Below, piece after piece: positions 6,078 to 47,094 of a stretch of DNA of 47,174 bases. The DNA is from Bacteroidota bacterium (GTDB lineage: Bacteria > Bacteroidota > Bacteroidia > Bacteroidales > B18-G4), in NCBI GenBank assembly GCA_013202965.1, contig JABMQZ010000125.1, positions 1-47,174 on the forward strand, written 5' to 3'. The position numbers and the translations under genes are program-made. Within the stretch, counting starts at the first letter, position 1. Every line of letters begins with the position of its first letter. Below the pieces are notes generated by a model. It ran no database searches. It worked only from the letters and a program-made list of their open reading frames with translations, and was not told the origin of the DNA.

Positions 6078-6143
6078 TAACAAAAAAAAGGCGTGAATAT
6101 TGAGGAGGGATGAATAAAACTAACAGAAAGATGTTAATTAATC

Positions 6144-6171
6144 AGTAGTTAGTAGTCAGTAGTCAGAATAG
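6144..6171. repeat. Heptamer array AGTAGTC type
   Basis: Units are AGTAGTT, AGTAGTC, AGTAGTC and AGAATAG. The last unit and its flank (AGTCAGAATAGTGT) recur at 30854. The array belongs to the dispersed heptamer family described in the findings. Confidence 0.75.
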
Positions 6172-6245: not shown

Positions 6246-6307
6246 AAAACTCTTAACTCTTTACTTCAATTCTTCACTTGGAACTCGGAACTCGGAACTT
6301 AGAATTG
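6246..6307. repeat. Heptamer array AAAACTC / GGAACTC type
   Basis: It opens AAAACTC, TTAACTC and TTTACTT, passes through an imperfect part, then reads GGAACTC, GGAACTC, GGAACTT and AGAATTG. It lies directly downstream of the rnhB stop codon (minus strand). The terminal AGAATTG forms one arm of a 26-nt imperfect palindrome (6301-6326). Confidence 0.7.
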
Positions 6308-15733: not shown

Positions 15734-15781
15734 TGAAATCAGAAATCAGATACCAGAAATCAGATACCAGAAATCAGAATT
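15734..15781. repeat. Heptamer array AGAAATC / AGATACC
   Basis: Units are TGAAATC, AGAAATC, AGATACC, AGAAATC, AGATACC, AGAAATC and the terminal AGAATT. It starts 7 bp after the stop of the polymerase gene and fills the convergent gap. It shares 29 identical consecutive bases with the array at 40091. Confidence 0.85.
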
Positions 15782-26523: not shown

Positions 26524-27756
26524 ATGTCAATAAAATCTATTAAGATCAAAGCAGCTGATCGGCACATCGCCGGGGAGGTGGAGATCCCTTTATCGAAAAG
26601 TATCAGCAACAGGGCATTAATGATACATACCCTCAGCGGGGGCCGCGTAAAATTCAAACATCTTTCAGATGCAGCCGACACTGTGCTGATGCAAAAACTG
26701 CTGGCACAGATCAATGAAAAAAAAGATTTCATCCTGGATGCAAAAAATTCCGGGACGGTATTCAGGTTCCTCACCGCATATCTTGCCATTACTGAAGGCC
26801 AGTGGCTCCTGAAAGGAAACAAACGCATGCTTGACAGGCCGGTCGGGCCACTGGTGGAAGCCCTGCAAAGGCTTGGTGCTGAGATCACATATGCCGGGAA
26901 AGCCGGGTTCCCCCCCCTTCACATCACTGGTAAGCAGCTAGAGGGTGGAAGCATTAAAGTGAAGGCAGAACCCAGCAGCCAGTTCATCTCTGCCATGATG
27001 ATGATTGCTCCGCTTCTCCCCTCAGGGCTCGAGATCCACCTGGAAGGAAAGGCTGTTTCAACGCCTTACCTGAACATGACTGCAGAGATGATGAAAACCG
27101 CCGGCATAAATGTTGACATGCAATTGCCCATCATAAAAATTCCCGGCAGAGACTACGGCAAATGTACATTGCCTGAAGAAAACGACTGGTCGGCAGCAGC
27201 ATTCTGGTATGAGGCCATAGCCCTCTCTGAGAAAGGCAGTATATTTCTTCCCGGATTAAAAAAACATTTACTGCAGGGCGACAGTGAAGTGGCAAATATA
27301 TTCCGGGCATTTGGCGTTAACACCCAGTACTCTGACAGTGGTGTACTGATCACAAAAACCGGCACAGAAGTAAAAGATATTAAAGTAGACCTTTCCCAGC
27401 ACCCGGATCTTGCACTTCCTGTGATCGTAACGGCTGCAGCTTTGGGATTAAATAGTGTTTTCACGGGATTAGCATCCCTGCGTATCAAGGAATCAGACAG
27501 ATTGGCCATGCTGTACACAGAGCTGGAAAAAACAGGAGTTAGCTGCAAGATGACAAACAACAGCTTATCCTTCTCCGCACAAAAGATGCATATAAGCAAA
27601 GCCGTAAGCACCTATGGTGACCACCGCATGGCCATGGCCTTTGCACCCCTGGCGTTGCTTGGAGATCCGGTGCTTATTAATGATCCTGAAGTGGTCAGTA
27701 AATCATATCCGGGTTTTTGGAAAGAGCTTCAGAAAGTTTTGAGTTTTAAGTTTTGA
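26524..27756 (+). CDS. aroA: 3-phosphoshikimate 1-carboxyvinyltransferase (EPSP synthase)
   Basis: 410 aa, next to last in the shikimate path. Substrate Lys is in PLSKSISNRAL, the central SSQFISAMMMIAPLL is present, the acidic catalytic residue lies in RIKESDRLAM and the C-terminal YGDHRMAMAFAPLAL is typical. The usual GNAGTAMRPL segment reads KNSGTVFRFL here. The residue matching E. coli Pro101 is Phe, a site where changes affect glyphosate binding. The last codons (KVLSFKF and stop) are encoded by a heptamer repeat (27736-27763). A strong GGGAGGA stands before the ATG. Confidence 0.96.
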   Translation: MSIKSIKIKAADRHIAGEVEIPLSKSISNRALMIHTLSGGRVKFKHLSDAADTVLMQKLLAQINEKKDFILDAKNSGTVFRFLTAYLAITEGQWLLKGNKRMLDRPVGPLVEALQRLGAEITYAGKAGFPPLHITGKQLEGGSIKVKAEPSSQFISAMMMIAPLLPSGLEIHLEGKAVSTPYLNMTAEMMKTAGINVDMQLPIIKIPGRDYGKCTLPEENDWSAAAFWYEAIALSEKGSIFLPGLKKHLLQGDSEVANIFRAFGVNTQYSDSGVLITKTGTEVKDIKVDLSQHPDLALPVIVTAAALGLNSVFTGLASLRIKESDRLAMLYTELEKTGVSCKMTNNSLSFSAQKMHISKAVSTYGDHRMAMAFAPLALLGDPVLINDPEVVSKSYPGFWKELQKVLSFKF

Positions 27757-27763
27757 GTGTTGG
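27736..27763. repeat. Heptamer array GTTTTGA / GTTTTAA over the aroA stop codon
   Basis: Units are GTTTTGA, GTTTTAA, GTTTTGA and GTGTTGG. The third unit contains the aroA stop TGA, and the first two encode its last residues. The reverse complement of the same word lies at the uvrD stop (37653-37686), sharing 23 bases. Confidence 0.75.
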
Positions 27764-37652: not shown

Positions 37653-37686
37653 TCAACTCAAAACTTAAAACTCAAAACTCAAATGA
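37653..37686. repeat. Heptamer array AAAACTC at the uvrD stop codon
   Basis: Units are TCAACTC, AAAACTT, AAAACTC, AAAACTC and AAATGA. Read on the minus strand it begins at the TGA stop of uvrD (37679-37681). It is the reverse complement of the word over the aroA stop. Confidence 0.75.
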
Positions 37687-40060: not shown

Positions 40061-40130
40061 AGGTTCAGGGTACAGGGTGCAGGGTACCAAAAATCAGAAA
40101 TCAGATACCAGAAATCAGAAGTCAGAATTA
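40061..40130. repeat. Mixed heptamer array AGGGTAC then AGAAATC
   Basis: Units are AGGTTC (six bases), AGGGTAC, AGGGTGC and AGGGTAC, then an eight-base CAAAAATC, then AGAAATC, AGATACC, AGAAATC, AGAAGTC and AGAATTA. Two unit types are joined in one array. It shares 29 consecutive bases with 15737-15765. Confidence 0.85.
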
Positions 40131-44319: not shown

Positions 44320-44353
44320 GGAAATCAGATATCAGAAATCAGAAATCAGAATT
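44320..44353. repeat. Heptamer array AGAAATC / AGATATC after the 190-aa gene
   Basis: Units are GGAAATC, AGATATC, AGAAATC, AGAAATC and the terminal AGAATT. It starts one base after the stop codon of the preceding gene. A 20-base word (44325-44344) recurs as reverse complement within the flavoprotein gene at 46004-46023. Confidence 0.85.
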
Positions 44354-44413: not shown

Positions 44414-44434
44414 AAAACTTAAAACTTAAAGCGG
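44414..44434. repeat. Heptamer array AAAACTT before the RlmN-like stop
   Basis: Units are AAAACTT, AAAACTT and AAAGCGG. On the minus strand it lies directly after the TAA stop of the RlmN-like gene and reads AGTTTTAAGTTTTGGGTGTT, close to the word that follows the aroA stop. Confidence 0.65.
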
Positions 44435-44435
44435 G

Positions 44436-45371
44436 TTAAATATCCTGAAGCTTATATGAATAGCTCCCATCCGGCACATTGCTGAGTTGATCCAGGGTCT
44501 TGATATACTGTCCGCAGTTGCTGCCAATCTTGTTTTCCTCCCATTCGCCAATGCTGAGGATCACCTCGTAGCCGGCAATTTTTAATGCATCCACCACAGG
44601 ATACTCTCTTCTTTCTCTCACAATGAGTGAGTCGATACCGTTGGAACGGGCTTTGAAGGTAGGGTTCACCGGAGTCACCTTGACCAGGAATACATCCGGG
44701 TTGAAATGCTCGAGCAACACTTTTGTTTCAAGGATGTTTTCCTTGCCAAGTGCAAAGTTGAGGGTCAGCTTTTTACCGCCCTCCGAATAAAAACGATTTC
44801 CGTATGCTGCCATCTCAGCGAAGCTCCATTTTTTCACAGGTATCAGCCTGTTACGCTGTTCCTCATCCGTACTGTGTAAGGAGAATTGCAGCTGAAAGGA
44901 AGTATCGTAGAGCGTTTTTTTAATTTCCAGCAATTCCTCAAAGAACATGGCCGTACCGTGCGGAGCTATTGAGGACAGGGATGCAACAAAATTATCCATA
45001 GGATATTTCGAAGGAAGGCTTTTGAGTACTTCAAGCACCGCCGGATTAAAAGAAGGCTCTCCCATGCGGGCAAACTGTATCTTGAATTTTTCTGTTTCAG
45101 GCTTCCCGGAGGGAAAACGTTGCTTCACCAGGTAGTCGATCTGGAAAAAGATCTCTTTGGCCGAAAGGCGTCCGCCGTATTCTCCTCCGGCATCGCAGAA
45201 TTTGCAACCCACAGGGCAACCAAAAAGCGTGGAGAGAATGATCACCCACTTTTTGCTGATGTCCATAGGCGGTTGGGTCGACTCCACAAATTCTATGCGC
45301 CGGCCATCCCTGTTCTCGGCAATAAACACCGAGGCGATTTCATGCTCTTTTGTCCTGCTGACTACTTTCAT
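44436..45371 (-). CDS. RlmN-family radical SAM enzyme, short form
   Basis: 311 aa. The FeS motif is CPVGCKFC (Cys52, Cys56, Cys59). Family blocks ARMGEPSFN, FSLHSTDEEQRNRLIPVKK, LNFALGKENI and VKVTPVNPTF follow in RlmN order. The methylatable cysteine of RlmN (E. coli Cys355) is kept as Cys286 in SNCGQYI. The partner cysteine (Cys118) corresponds to Ile45 here. The N-terminal RNA-recognition domain (about 80-90 residues in RlmN) is missing. RlmN methylates C2 of adenine in 23S rRNA and tRNA; this short form may act on another target or by a different resolution step. It starts 2 bp after the flavoprotein stop. Confidence 0.82.
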   Translation of the reverse strand: MKVVSRTKEHEIASVFIAENRDGRRIEFVESTQPPMDISKKWVIILSTLFGCPVGCKFCDAGGEYGGRLSAKEIFFQIDYLVKQRFPSGKPETEKFKIQFARMGEPSFNPAVLEVLKSLPSKYPMDNFVASLSSIAPHGTAMFFEELLEIKKTLYDTSFQLQFSLHSTDEEQRNRLIPVKKWSFAEMAAYGNRFYSEGGKKLTLNFALGKENILETKVLLEHFNPDVFLVKVTPVNPTFKARSNGIDSLIVRERREYPVVDALKIAGYEVILSIGEWEENKIGSNCGQYIKTLDQLSNVPDGSYSYKLQDI

Positions 45372-45373
45372 AC

Positions 45374-46249
45374 TTACAATATCCTGTCTTTTATGGCCAT
45401 GGCCACTTTGATGCCGTCACCTATAGCTACCGAGGCCTGTCGCAGCATCCCGTTTTTCACGTCGCCGGCACGGTATAAAACACCCTCCGGCTCCAGTTTG
45501 TCCAGAACTTTTATCAAATCAGGCGACAGCAGGCTGAGGTTCGGCTCGCGGCCGGTGGCAAAAATAATATAATCAGCTGAATATCCGGCAGGTTCTTGAT
45601 GCCCTGAAAATTTGAGACGCACACCTCCGCCATCTTCATCAATTGCTATCAATTCCATGTTCTCATGGTAACAGATATGTTGCTGCGTTTTAGAAATATC
45701 GTGTAGTGCAGGAATGCATTTGATCACACTGCTGCGGTTAAATATATCTACCTGATTATGTTCAGCAAGGCTCATGGCATAATCGAAGGCGGCATCACCG
45801 GCCCCAATGATGGCAATTTTTTTTCCTTTCATCCCCCGGAGGGGAAATACTTCATAAAAAACCTTCCTTCTGACCTCCGGATTCAGTCCCGGAAAAATTT
45901 CCCTGCCATTTGTTCCTGTAGCCAGAACGAGATATTGGGAAGTAAAATTATTATTTTCAGTTTTCAGGACAAAAACACCGTTTGCAAACTTCAAACTTCT
46001 AACTTCTGATTTCTGATATCTGACCTCTAATTTCTTAAGGTGCTGCTCAATTTTCCCAGCCATGTCCACCCCTCTGATCCCTTCCGGATATCCGGGGTAG
46101 TTATCCAGCCTCCATGCGCTGTTGAGCAGCCCGCCTATGCTGTCTTTTTCGATCAGCAGTACATCGATACCGTATCTTTTCAGCTGGACCGCACAGGCCG
46201 CACCTGCAGGCCCCCCGCCAATGATGATCACCGTTTCATTTACCACCAT
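45374..46249 (-). CDS. Thioredoxin reductase-like flavoprotein without redox CxxC
   Basis: 291 aa. The FAD motif is IIIGGGPAGAACA near the start, the NAD(P)H motif is IAIIGAGDAAFDYA, and the C-terminal FAD contact is YRAGDVKNG. The thioredoxin-reductase CxxC is absent (that place reads GAGDAAFDYA), so it is closer to ferredoxin/flavodoxin reductases of this fold. A 42-bp heptamer array (45993-46034) is inside the reading frame and encodes the repeat LEVRYQK-SEVRSLK. It may supply electrons to the adjacent radical SAM enzyme; that is inference from the tight operon. It overlaps the isochorismatase-family gene by 14 bp. Confidence 0.8.
   Translation of the reverse strand: MVVNETVIIIGGGPAGAACAVQLKRYGIDVLLIEKDSIGGLLNSAWRLDNYPGYPEGIRGVDMAGKIEQHLKKLEVRYQKSEVRSLKFANGVFVLKTENNNFTSQYLVLATGTNGREIFPGLNPEVRRKVFYEVFPLRGMKGKKIAIIGAGDAAFDYAMSLAEHNQVDIFNRSSVIKCIPALHDISKTQQHICYHENMELIAIDEDGGGVRLKFSGHQEPAGYSADYIIFATGREPNLSLLSPDLIKVLDKLEPEGVLYRAGDVKNGMLRQASVAIGDGIKVAMAIKDRIL
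45993..46034. repeat. In-frame heptamer array inside the flavoprotein gene
   Basis: Six units on the plus strand are AAACTTC, TAACTTC, TGATTTC, TGATATC, TGACCTC and TAATTTC. Read on the minus coding strand they are in phase and make the peptide repeat LEVRYQK then SEVRSLK. 46004-46023 is the exact reverse complement of 44325-44344. Confidence 0.8.
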
Positions 46250-46895
46250 TTAAAAAACTGATTAGTGTTTTGGTCATAAGAGGAGCTGAAAAGATATAGG
46301 CCAGGTTCAGGAATGTAGCGAGATGAAATTCCAGGTTGTAGGAAGCCGTGGCATCCACCGGCATTACAACCTCGAATCCCCTGACAAATGCAGAGCGGGC
46401 CGTAGTTTCACAGCAAAGGTTGGTCATCACTCCCGTAATGATCAACTGCCTGATGCCGGCATTGCGAAGCTCTGTTTCAAAGTTTGTTCCGTAAAAGGCA
46501 TCAAACTGGGTTTTATTGATGAGCGTTCCACCTGCTTTCAGGATGTCGGGATGGATTTCACTGCGAGAATCACTTTCCTTTATCAGCTCTTCCCACCTTA
46601 CACCCATCATACCTGCATCTTCAGGAGTATTCAGGTGCCTGCTCATAAATACCGGAATTCCCTGTATATGGCAAGTTTCCATGATGCTGATAACATTAGA
46701 GATGATGGCCGGTGCAGATGGAATATAGGCATGCTCATCAGGCAGGAGAAAATAATTCTGCATATCCACAACAACTAATGCGATATGCTTTTTGTCGGGC
46801 ACAAATGATCTTTTGCCGGAGTAGCTTATTACCTCCTTGATCAGTTCACGTGATTCAGATGCAATAGACTCATCTGTAAAATACTTTTCCTTCAT
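46236..46895 (-). CDS. Isochorismatase-family cysteine hydrolase
   Basis: About 219 aa from ATG 46895; the track's TTG start adds 25 residues without family similarity, and a -7 box overlies that extension. The triad is Asp in ALVVVDMQNYF, Lys in LINKTQFDAFYG and Cys in ITGVMTNLCCETTARSAF. The cis-peptide GVMTN fits nicotinamidase-like and related hydrolases. It is the first gene of a coupled series with the flavoprotein and the RlmN-like enzyme. The substrate is unknown. It differs from the exported member at 28700-29503. Confidence 0.82.
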   Translation of the reverse strand: MKEKYFTDESIASESRELIKEVISYSGKRSFVPDKKHIALVVVDMQNYFLLPDEHAYIPSAPAIISNVISIMETCHIQGIPVFMSRHLNTPEDAGMMGVRWEELIKESDSRSEIHPDILKAGGTLINKTQFDAFYGTNFETELRNAGIRQLIITGVMTNLCCETTARSAFVRGFEVVMPVDATASYNLEFHLATFLNLAYIFSAPLMTKTLISFLNGGK

Positions 46896-46922
46896 TCCAT
46901 CCGGATTAAGGGTATTATTTTG

Positions 46923-46930
46923 CAAAAATA
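46923..46930 (-). promoter_or_regulatory. Candidate -7 box (TATTTTTG) of the hydrolase-flavoprotein-RlmN-like operon
   Basis: A TAnnTTTG match on the minus strand, 28 bp upstream of the chosen ATG at 46895. No good -33 TTTG was seen. It supports the shorter start of the first gene. Confidence 0.4.
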
Positions 46931-47094
46931 GCATAAAAAGGATAATGAATAGTAAAGAATCCCCACCCAAAGGACAGGACGTTGGGAAATCACTTCAAAG
47001 GGGTGTATGGTATGCTTCTTTGAACAAATTTTAAGCACTAAAACCCTAAATCCGAAACAAATTCGAAAATAAAAAAATCTTTGAAATTGATTAT

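Follow-up and report, generated by a model that had tools for sequence, protein, structure and literature searches.

An in-frame heptamer array in a thioredoxin-reductase-like flavoprotein gene shared by three species of a Bacteroidales genus

The flavoprotein cassette and its array

The window analyzed here, the whole stretch of 47,174 nucleotides, carries on its minus strand a three-gene cassette (44436-46970) for an isochorismatase-like hydrolase, a thioredoxin-reductase-like flavoprotein without a CxxC motif, and an RlmN/Cfr-like radical SAM protein. This cassette is also complete in ten other genomes checked, which belong to several families of the order. A tandem array of GAAATCA-type heptamers lies inside the flavoprotein gene, and further arrays of this family lie between genes of the window.

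46236-46970, minus strand: isochorismatase-like hydrolase, upstream partner in the cassette
45374-46249, minus strand: thioredoxin-reductase-like FAD/NAD(P) flavoprotein, 291 aa (TIGR01292, 127.7 bits; Pyr_redox_2)
45986-46034, minus strand: in-frame heptamer array of seven GAAATCA-type units, codons 72-88, about KLEVRYQKSEVRSLKF
44436-45371, minus strand: RlmN/Cfr-type radical SAM protein (weak match), downstream partner of the flavoprotein gene in the cassette
44321-44351, plus strand: intergenic array of the GAAATCA family, one of many, which holds a 20-mer shared with the array in the flavoprotein gene
40091-40127, plus strand: intergenic array of the GAAATCA family
15735-15779, plus strand: intergenic array of the GAAATCA family

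Residues 6-287 of the flavoprotein align to 2q7v and others, consistent with a two-domain FAD/NAD(P) fold. Two marks of a thioredoxin reductase are lacking: the TIGR01292 score is under the NCBIfam cut-off of 343.45 bits, and no CxxC redox motif is visible in the protein, where the aligned position reads YEVFPLRG. An AlphaFold2 prediction for the window protein with one relative was too poor for structural use (mean pLDDT 32.6). From the fold of thioredoxin reductases, we take the array segment to be a strand of the FAD domain. The isochorismatase-like and radical SAM neighbors are kept beside nearly all flavoprotein orthologues checked, and this conservation on both sides supports the orthology of the flavoprotein genes. 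Comparison of the flavoprotein gene between the genome of the window (G000) and a congener (G002) gave a dN of 0.068 and a dS of 0.29, indicating purifying selection.

Read on the coding (minus) strand from 46034 down to 45986, the array consists of the degenerate units GAAATTA, GAGGTCA, GATATCA, GAAATCA, GAAGTTA, GAAGTTT, and GAAGTTT, and codons 74-87 of the gene translate to LEVRYQKSEVRSLK. Its units follow a GA[AT][AG]T[CT]A-like pattern at a seven-base period. The original prediction had described six in-frame 7-bp units here; the sequence and reading frame were as described, and the number of units is seven.

Scored with a unit matrix that had been trained on 21 other GAAATCA arrays from the same genome, this array reached +43.1 bits. 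In a coding background of 436 sampled genes (495 kb), comparable sense-strand scores were found only twice, both in array-bearing genes (64.0 and 26.9 bits). The next-best background scores were 6.2 bits (antisense, from array text at a gene edge) and 4.8 bits (the antisense copy of the 64-bit array), and everything else lay at about -1 or lower. When the array peptide was recoded with synonymous codons, none of 4000 trials reached the observed score for G000, none of 4000 for G002, and 3 of 4000 for a second congener, G003; synonymous shuffles of the G003 peptide averaged 14 bits, so the composition of this peptide itself adds to the score. The score relative to the coding background, together with the recoding trials, establishes the array as real and as a member of a genomic repeat family.

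The GAAATCA family within and beyond the genus

Tandem repeats in the sampled genome most often have a period of seven. A search with the 19-mer ATCAGAAATCAGAAATCAG, in which up to 3 mismatches were allowed, gave 221 matches in the genome of the window, and a reversed control gave 3. Matches to the GAAATCA pattern number 221, 178, 138, and 33 in four species of the genus and 2 to 30 in other genera of the family. Two genomes from other families of the order, G054 and G051, have 99 matches (27 in the control) and 48 matches (0 in the control), respectively, and with genomes this rich in matches the GAAATCA family is not confined to the genus.

The survey of heptamer arrays covered a 574-kb sample of contigs, of which half had been picked for their arrays, with genes called as longest ORFs. 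Of the 54 arrays found, 42 are intergenic, 8 touch gene ends, and 4 lie inside ORFs; the intergenic majority contrasts with the 88% share of coding sequence in this half array-selected sample. Dispersed copies of the GAAATCA family thus lie mostly outside genes. Co-directional, divergent, and convergent gaps are all used by the intergenic arrays, with no strong placement bias and no clear regulatory placement in this small sample. Heptamer arrays of other units also occur in the window, intergenic or at gene ends, at 6142-6166, 6276-6299, 27735-27762, 37655-37683, 40062-40087, and 44414-44430 (TCAGTAG, ACTCGGA, AGTTTTG, AACTCAA, GGTACAG, and AAAACTT, in this order).

As 7 cannot be divided by 3, tandem GAAATCA encodes an identical heptapeptide cycle, EIRNQKS, in all three frames. 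Stop codons occur only on the other strand, and arrays of the family that lie in ORFs are therefore necessarily in the stop-free orientation.

Orthologues and age of the array

The array in the flavoprotein gene belongs to a genomic repeat family, is present in three species and in none of 14 other orthologues, and leaves the length of the protein unchanged. Both congeners, G002 (JAIOSQ01, Bacteroidales bacterium SMBSF48 bin_32) and G003, carry it at the same codons as the window; all genomes compared are draft assemblies. Their flavoproteins share with that of the window 87% identity (G002) and 56% in the best segment or 50% overall (G003). The core of the array is identical in G002 (40.1 bits), and that of G003 (GATATCA, GATACCA, GAAATCA, GAAATCA, GAAATTT, and GAAATAC; 48.3 bits) is purer than the array of the window. 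The presence of the array at the same codons in G002 and G003 places its origin before the split of the three species, and synonymous divergence between G000 and G003 has come close to saturation (dS about 1.75), in conflict with a recent event. The 14 outgroup orthologues come from other genera and families, and no 42-mer in any of these genes scores above -12.8 bits. With three carriers only and distant outgroups (identity about 40-45%), no intermediate state was seen. When codon drift was simulated with a per-lineage redraw probability of 0.5, the observed scores had a chance of 0.06 for G000 and 0.12 for G003, which hints at DNA-level upkeep of the heptamer pattern inside the flavoprotein gene.

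The array columns are gap-free across the 17 orthologues and against solved thioredoxin reductases, including PDB 4gcm, and two outgroups are one residue short just beyond the array. The flavoprotein is thus no longer at the array than its array-free orthologues, and the proposal that the array replaced existing sequence, and was not added to it, held up: about 15 residues were replaced without change of length, as shown by the gap-free alignment of array-free orthologues. The thioredoxin reductase of Staphylococcus aureus (4gcm) aligns at the array, without gaps, as GAVYQYGDIKSVED.

The translation of the array (DIRYQKSEIRNLKY or EVRYQKSEVRSLKF) keeps the residue pattern of the family, a hydrophobic residue followed by Glu, Val/Ile, and Leu/Val. 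The sharp difference from orthologues that was suggested as a check of the original prediction did not appear; deviation of the array segment from the outgroups is slightly above average and ranks 37 among 278 windows. The result that would have refuted the original prediction did not appear either: no array-free orthologue has the same residues, and G002 and G003, which do have them, are array carriers. Two array-free relatives resemble parts of the array translation, G006 with GACATCAGGTACCAG (DIRYQEV) and G007 with AAAGCAGAAGTT (KVEKAEVSGV), so some of the match may be older than the array.

Origin of the array and its wider context

We consider it probable that, in the ancestor common to the genus, a copy of the GAAATCA family overwrote a stretch of about 45-50 bp in the flavoprotein gene and has stayed in frame ever since. 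Overwriting would have taken place in the orientation of the repeat that is free of stop codons in all frames. The array was presumably tolerated because its translation, with the repeat cycle E-I/V-R-x-x-K-x, retains the hydrophobic and Glu positions of the family in the FAD domain. Least certain is the writing step itself: the array may have been copied in without a change of length, with short matches allowing ectopic conversion or template switching, or it may have grown stepwise in place; insertion with a deletion of equal size would be a less favored route than length-neutral copying or growth in place. That the array instead arose by growth in place, from codons that were already unit-like (D-I-R-Y-Q, K-A/S-E-V) and were extended by slippage and point mutation in a length-constrained segment, is unlikely but not far-fetched. 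Such codons exist at or near the array position in G006 (GAC ATC AGG TAC CAG) and G007 (AAA GCA GAA GTT), and the units of G000 and G003 differ mainly at position 4 (A or G), which varies in other arrays too. However, slippage alone alters length, and no length is altered among the 17 orthologues; DIRYQ of G006 is two residues out of register in the alignment; and nothing lies between the arrays, which score above 40 bits, and the best value of the outgroups.

The original prediction raised gene conversion as a possibility and drew attention to the array at 44325-44344. The 20-mer on which it drew, TCAGATATCAGAAATCAGAA, is present there, exact and inverted on the strand opposite to the array in the flavoprotein gene, 1.7 kb away. 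However, the genome has this 20-mer at eight places, a longer match of 23 bp is found at C92:29621-29643, and in the sampled contigs no homology to the flanks of the array was detected, so that there is neither a special tie to 44325 nor a reason to call it the donor, and no conversion tract with a donor homologous beyond the repeat was found. A recent conversion from this array is very improbable and is contradicted by the arrays in the G002 and G003 genes, which make the event older than their split; ancient conversion from some other array is possible. We give still less credence to coincidence, by which the codons of an ordinary conserved segment happen to resemble the repeat. It would account for the family residue pattern being kept and for the similar segment of S. 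aureus thioredoxin reductase, GAVYQYGDIKSVE, but the array scores far above the coding background, the array-free orthologues lie far lower, and synonymous shuffles almost never reach the observed scores. Overwriting by a GAAATCA copy is the reading that we favor.

Several known repeat systems share features with these arrays. Direct repeats of the heptamer TAACTGA in Beggiatoaceae, Cyanobacteria, and Bacteroidetes are mostly intergenic, and their stop-free copies in ORFs encode the heptapeptide LSVISYQ; most of these copies sit at the ends of proteins or within short hypothetical ones, and one exception is noted (MacGregor 2015, PMC4679880). The GAAATCA family is likewise a set of genome-wide 7-bp direct repeats, mostly intergenic, with a stop-free orientation that yields a heptapeptide (here EIRNQKS). 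It differs in its unit and is not a TAACTGA system placed directly upstream of start codons, and the array described here lies within the FAD domain of an enzyme-like protein, is length-neutral, and is shared by three species. The GGGAATC heptamers of Xanthomonas and Nostoc resemble GAAATCA as dispersed simple repeats that are under-represented within coding regions, but they are G-rich, form G-quadruplexes, and have a position preference near ORFs (PMC4692102), whereas GAAATCA has no G-run and, in our small sample, no strong context preference. Rickettsia palindromic elements (about 150 bp; reviewed in PMC10969869) are also dispersed DNA in frame within unrelated protein genes; they add residues, unlike the short tandem heptamers here, from which the flavoprotein gene gains none. 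PARCELs, found in varied microbes, are similar in that repeat DNA encodes tandem peptide units, but these are palindromic-repeat domains of 25 residues, in ORFs without assigned functions (PMC2996958), whereas the array here encodes 7-residue cycles within an enzyme-like protein that is conserved. Literature searches for the heptamer in Bacteroidota, largely outside subscription papers, led only to PMC4679880. Among the descriptions consulted for these four systems there is no length-neutral heptamer array fixed in a conserved protein across species.

The array in the flavoprotein gene is part of a wider pattern of heptamer repeats entering genes in this genus, and this context is more interesting than the single flavoprotein case. 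Further conserved genes of the genus have in-frame arrays on the sense strand, some of them clear insertions.

L101:725-817 (G000:C193): deacetylase-like protein, about 37 extra in-frame residues from two heptamer families
L094:1971-2012 (G003:C42): MutS2 linker, about 10 residues longer through a heptamer array
L099:2647-2688 (G002:C287): PaaK-like ligase loop, GAAATCA array
L153:1434-1502 (G000:C126): PaaK-like ligase loop, AAAATTC array

The insertion in the deacetylase-like protein is absent from the G002 orthologue, and that in MutS2 is absent in six relatives; unlike these two proteins, the flavoprotein has no residues added. One and the same loop of the PaaK-like ligase holds GAAATCA units in G002 versus AAAATTC units in G000. 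Arrays are also present near the C-terminus of FtsH (G000) and of T9SS proteins (G002 and G003). A 178-aa ORF with a GAGTTCC array on the contig of the deacetylase-like gene (C193, 19455-19988) matched no known family and was left out of the gene count.

Bacterial short tandem repeats are usually regarded as intergenic noise or as phase-variation switches. Tentatively, heptamer arrays in this genus may be a continuing source of protein sequence, entering the loops, linkers, and tails of conserved proteins, and even a core segment, and turning over there as DNA, such that the orthologous loops of sister species differ in their heptamers. The states before and after are visible in related species for the deacetylase-like protein, MutS2, and the PaaK-like ligase, and the flavoprotein is one case where an array became a fixed part of a conserved protein. 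If this view is true, a heptamer that is stop-free independent of frame would provide a simple route from non-coding repeats to new peptide segments.
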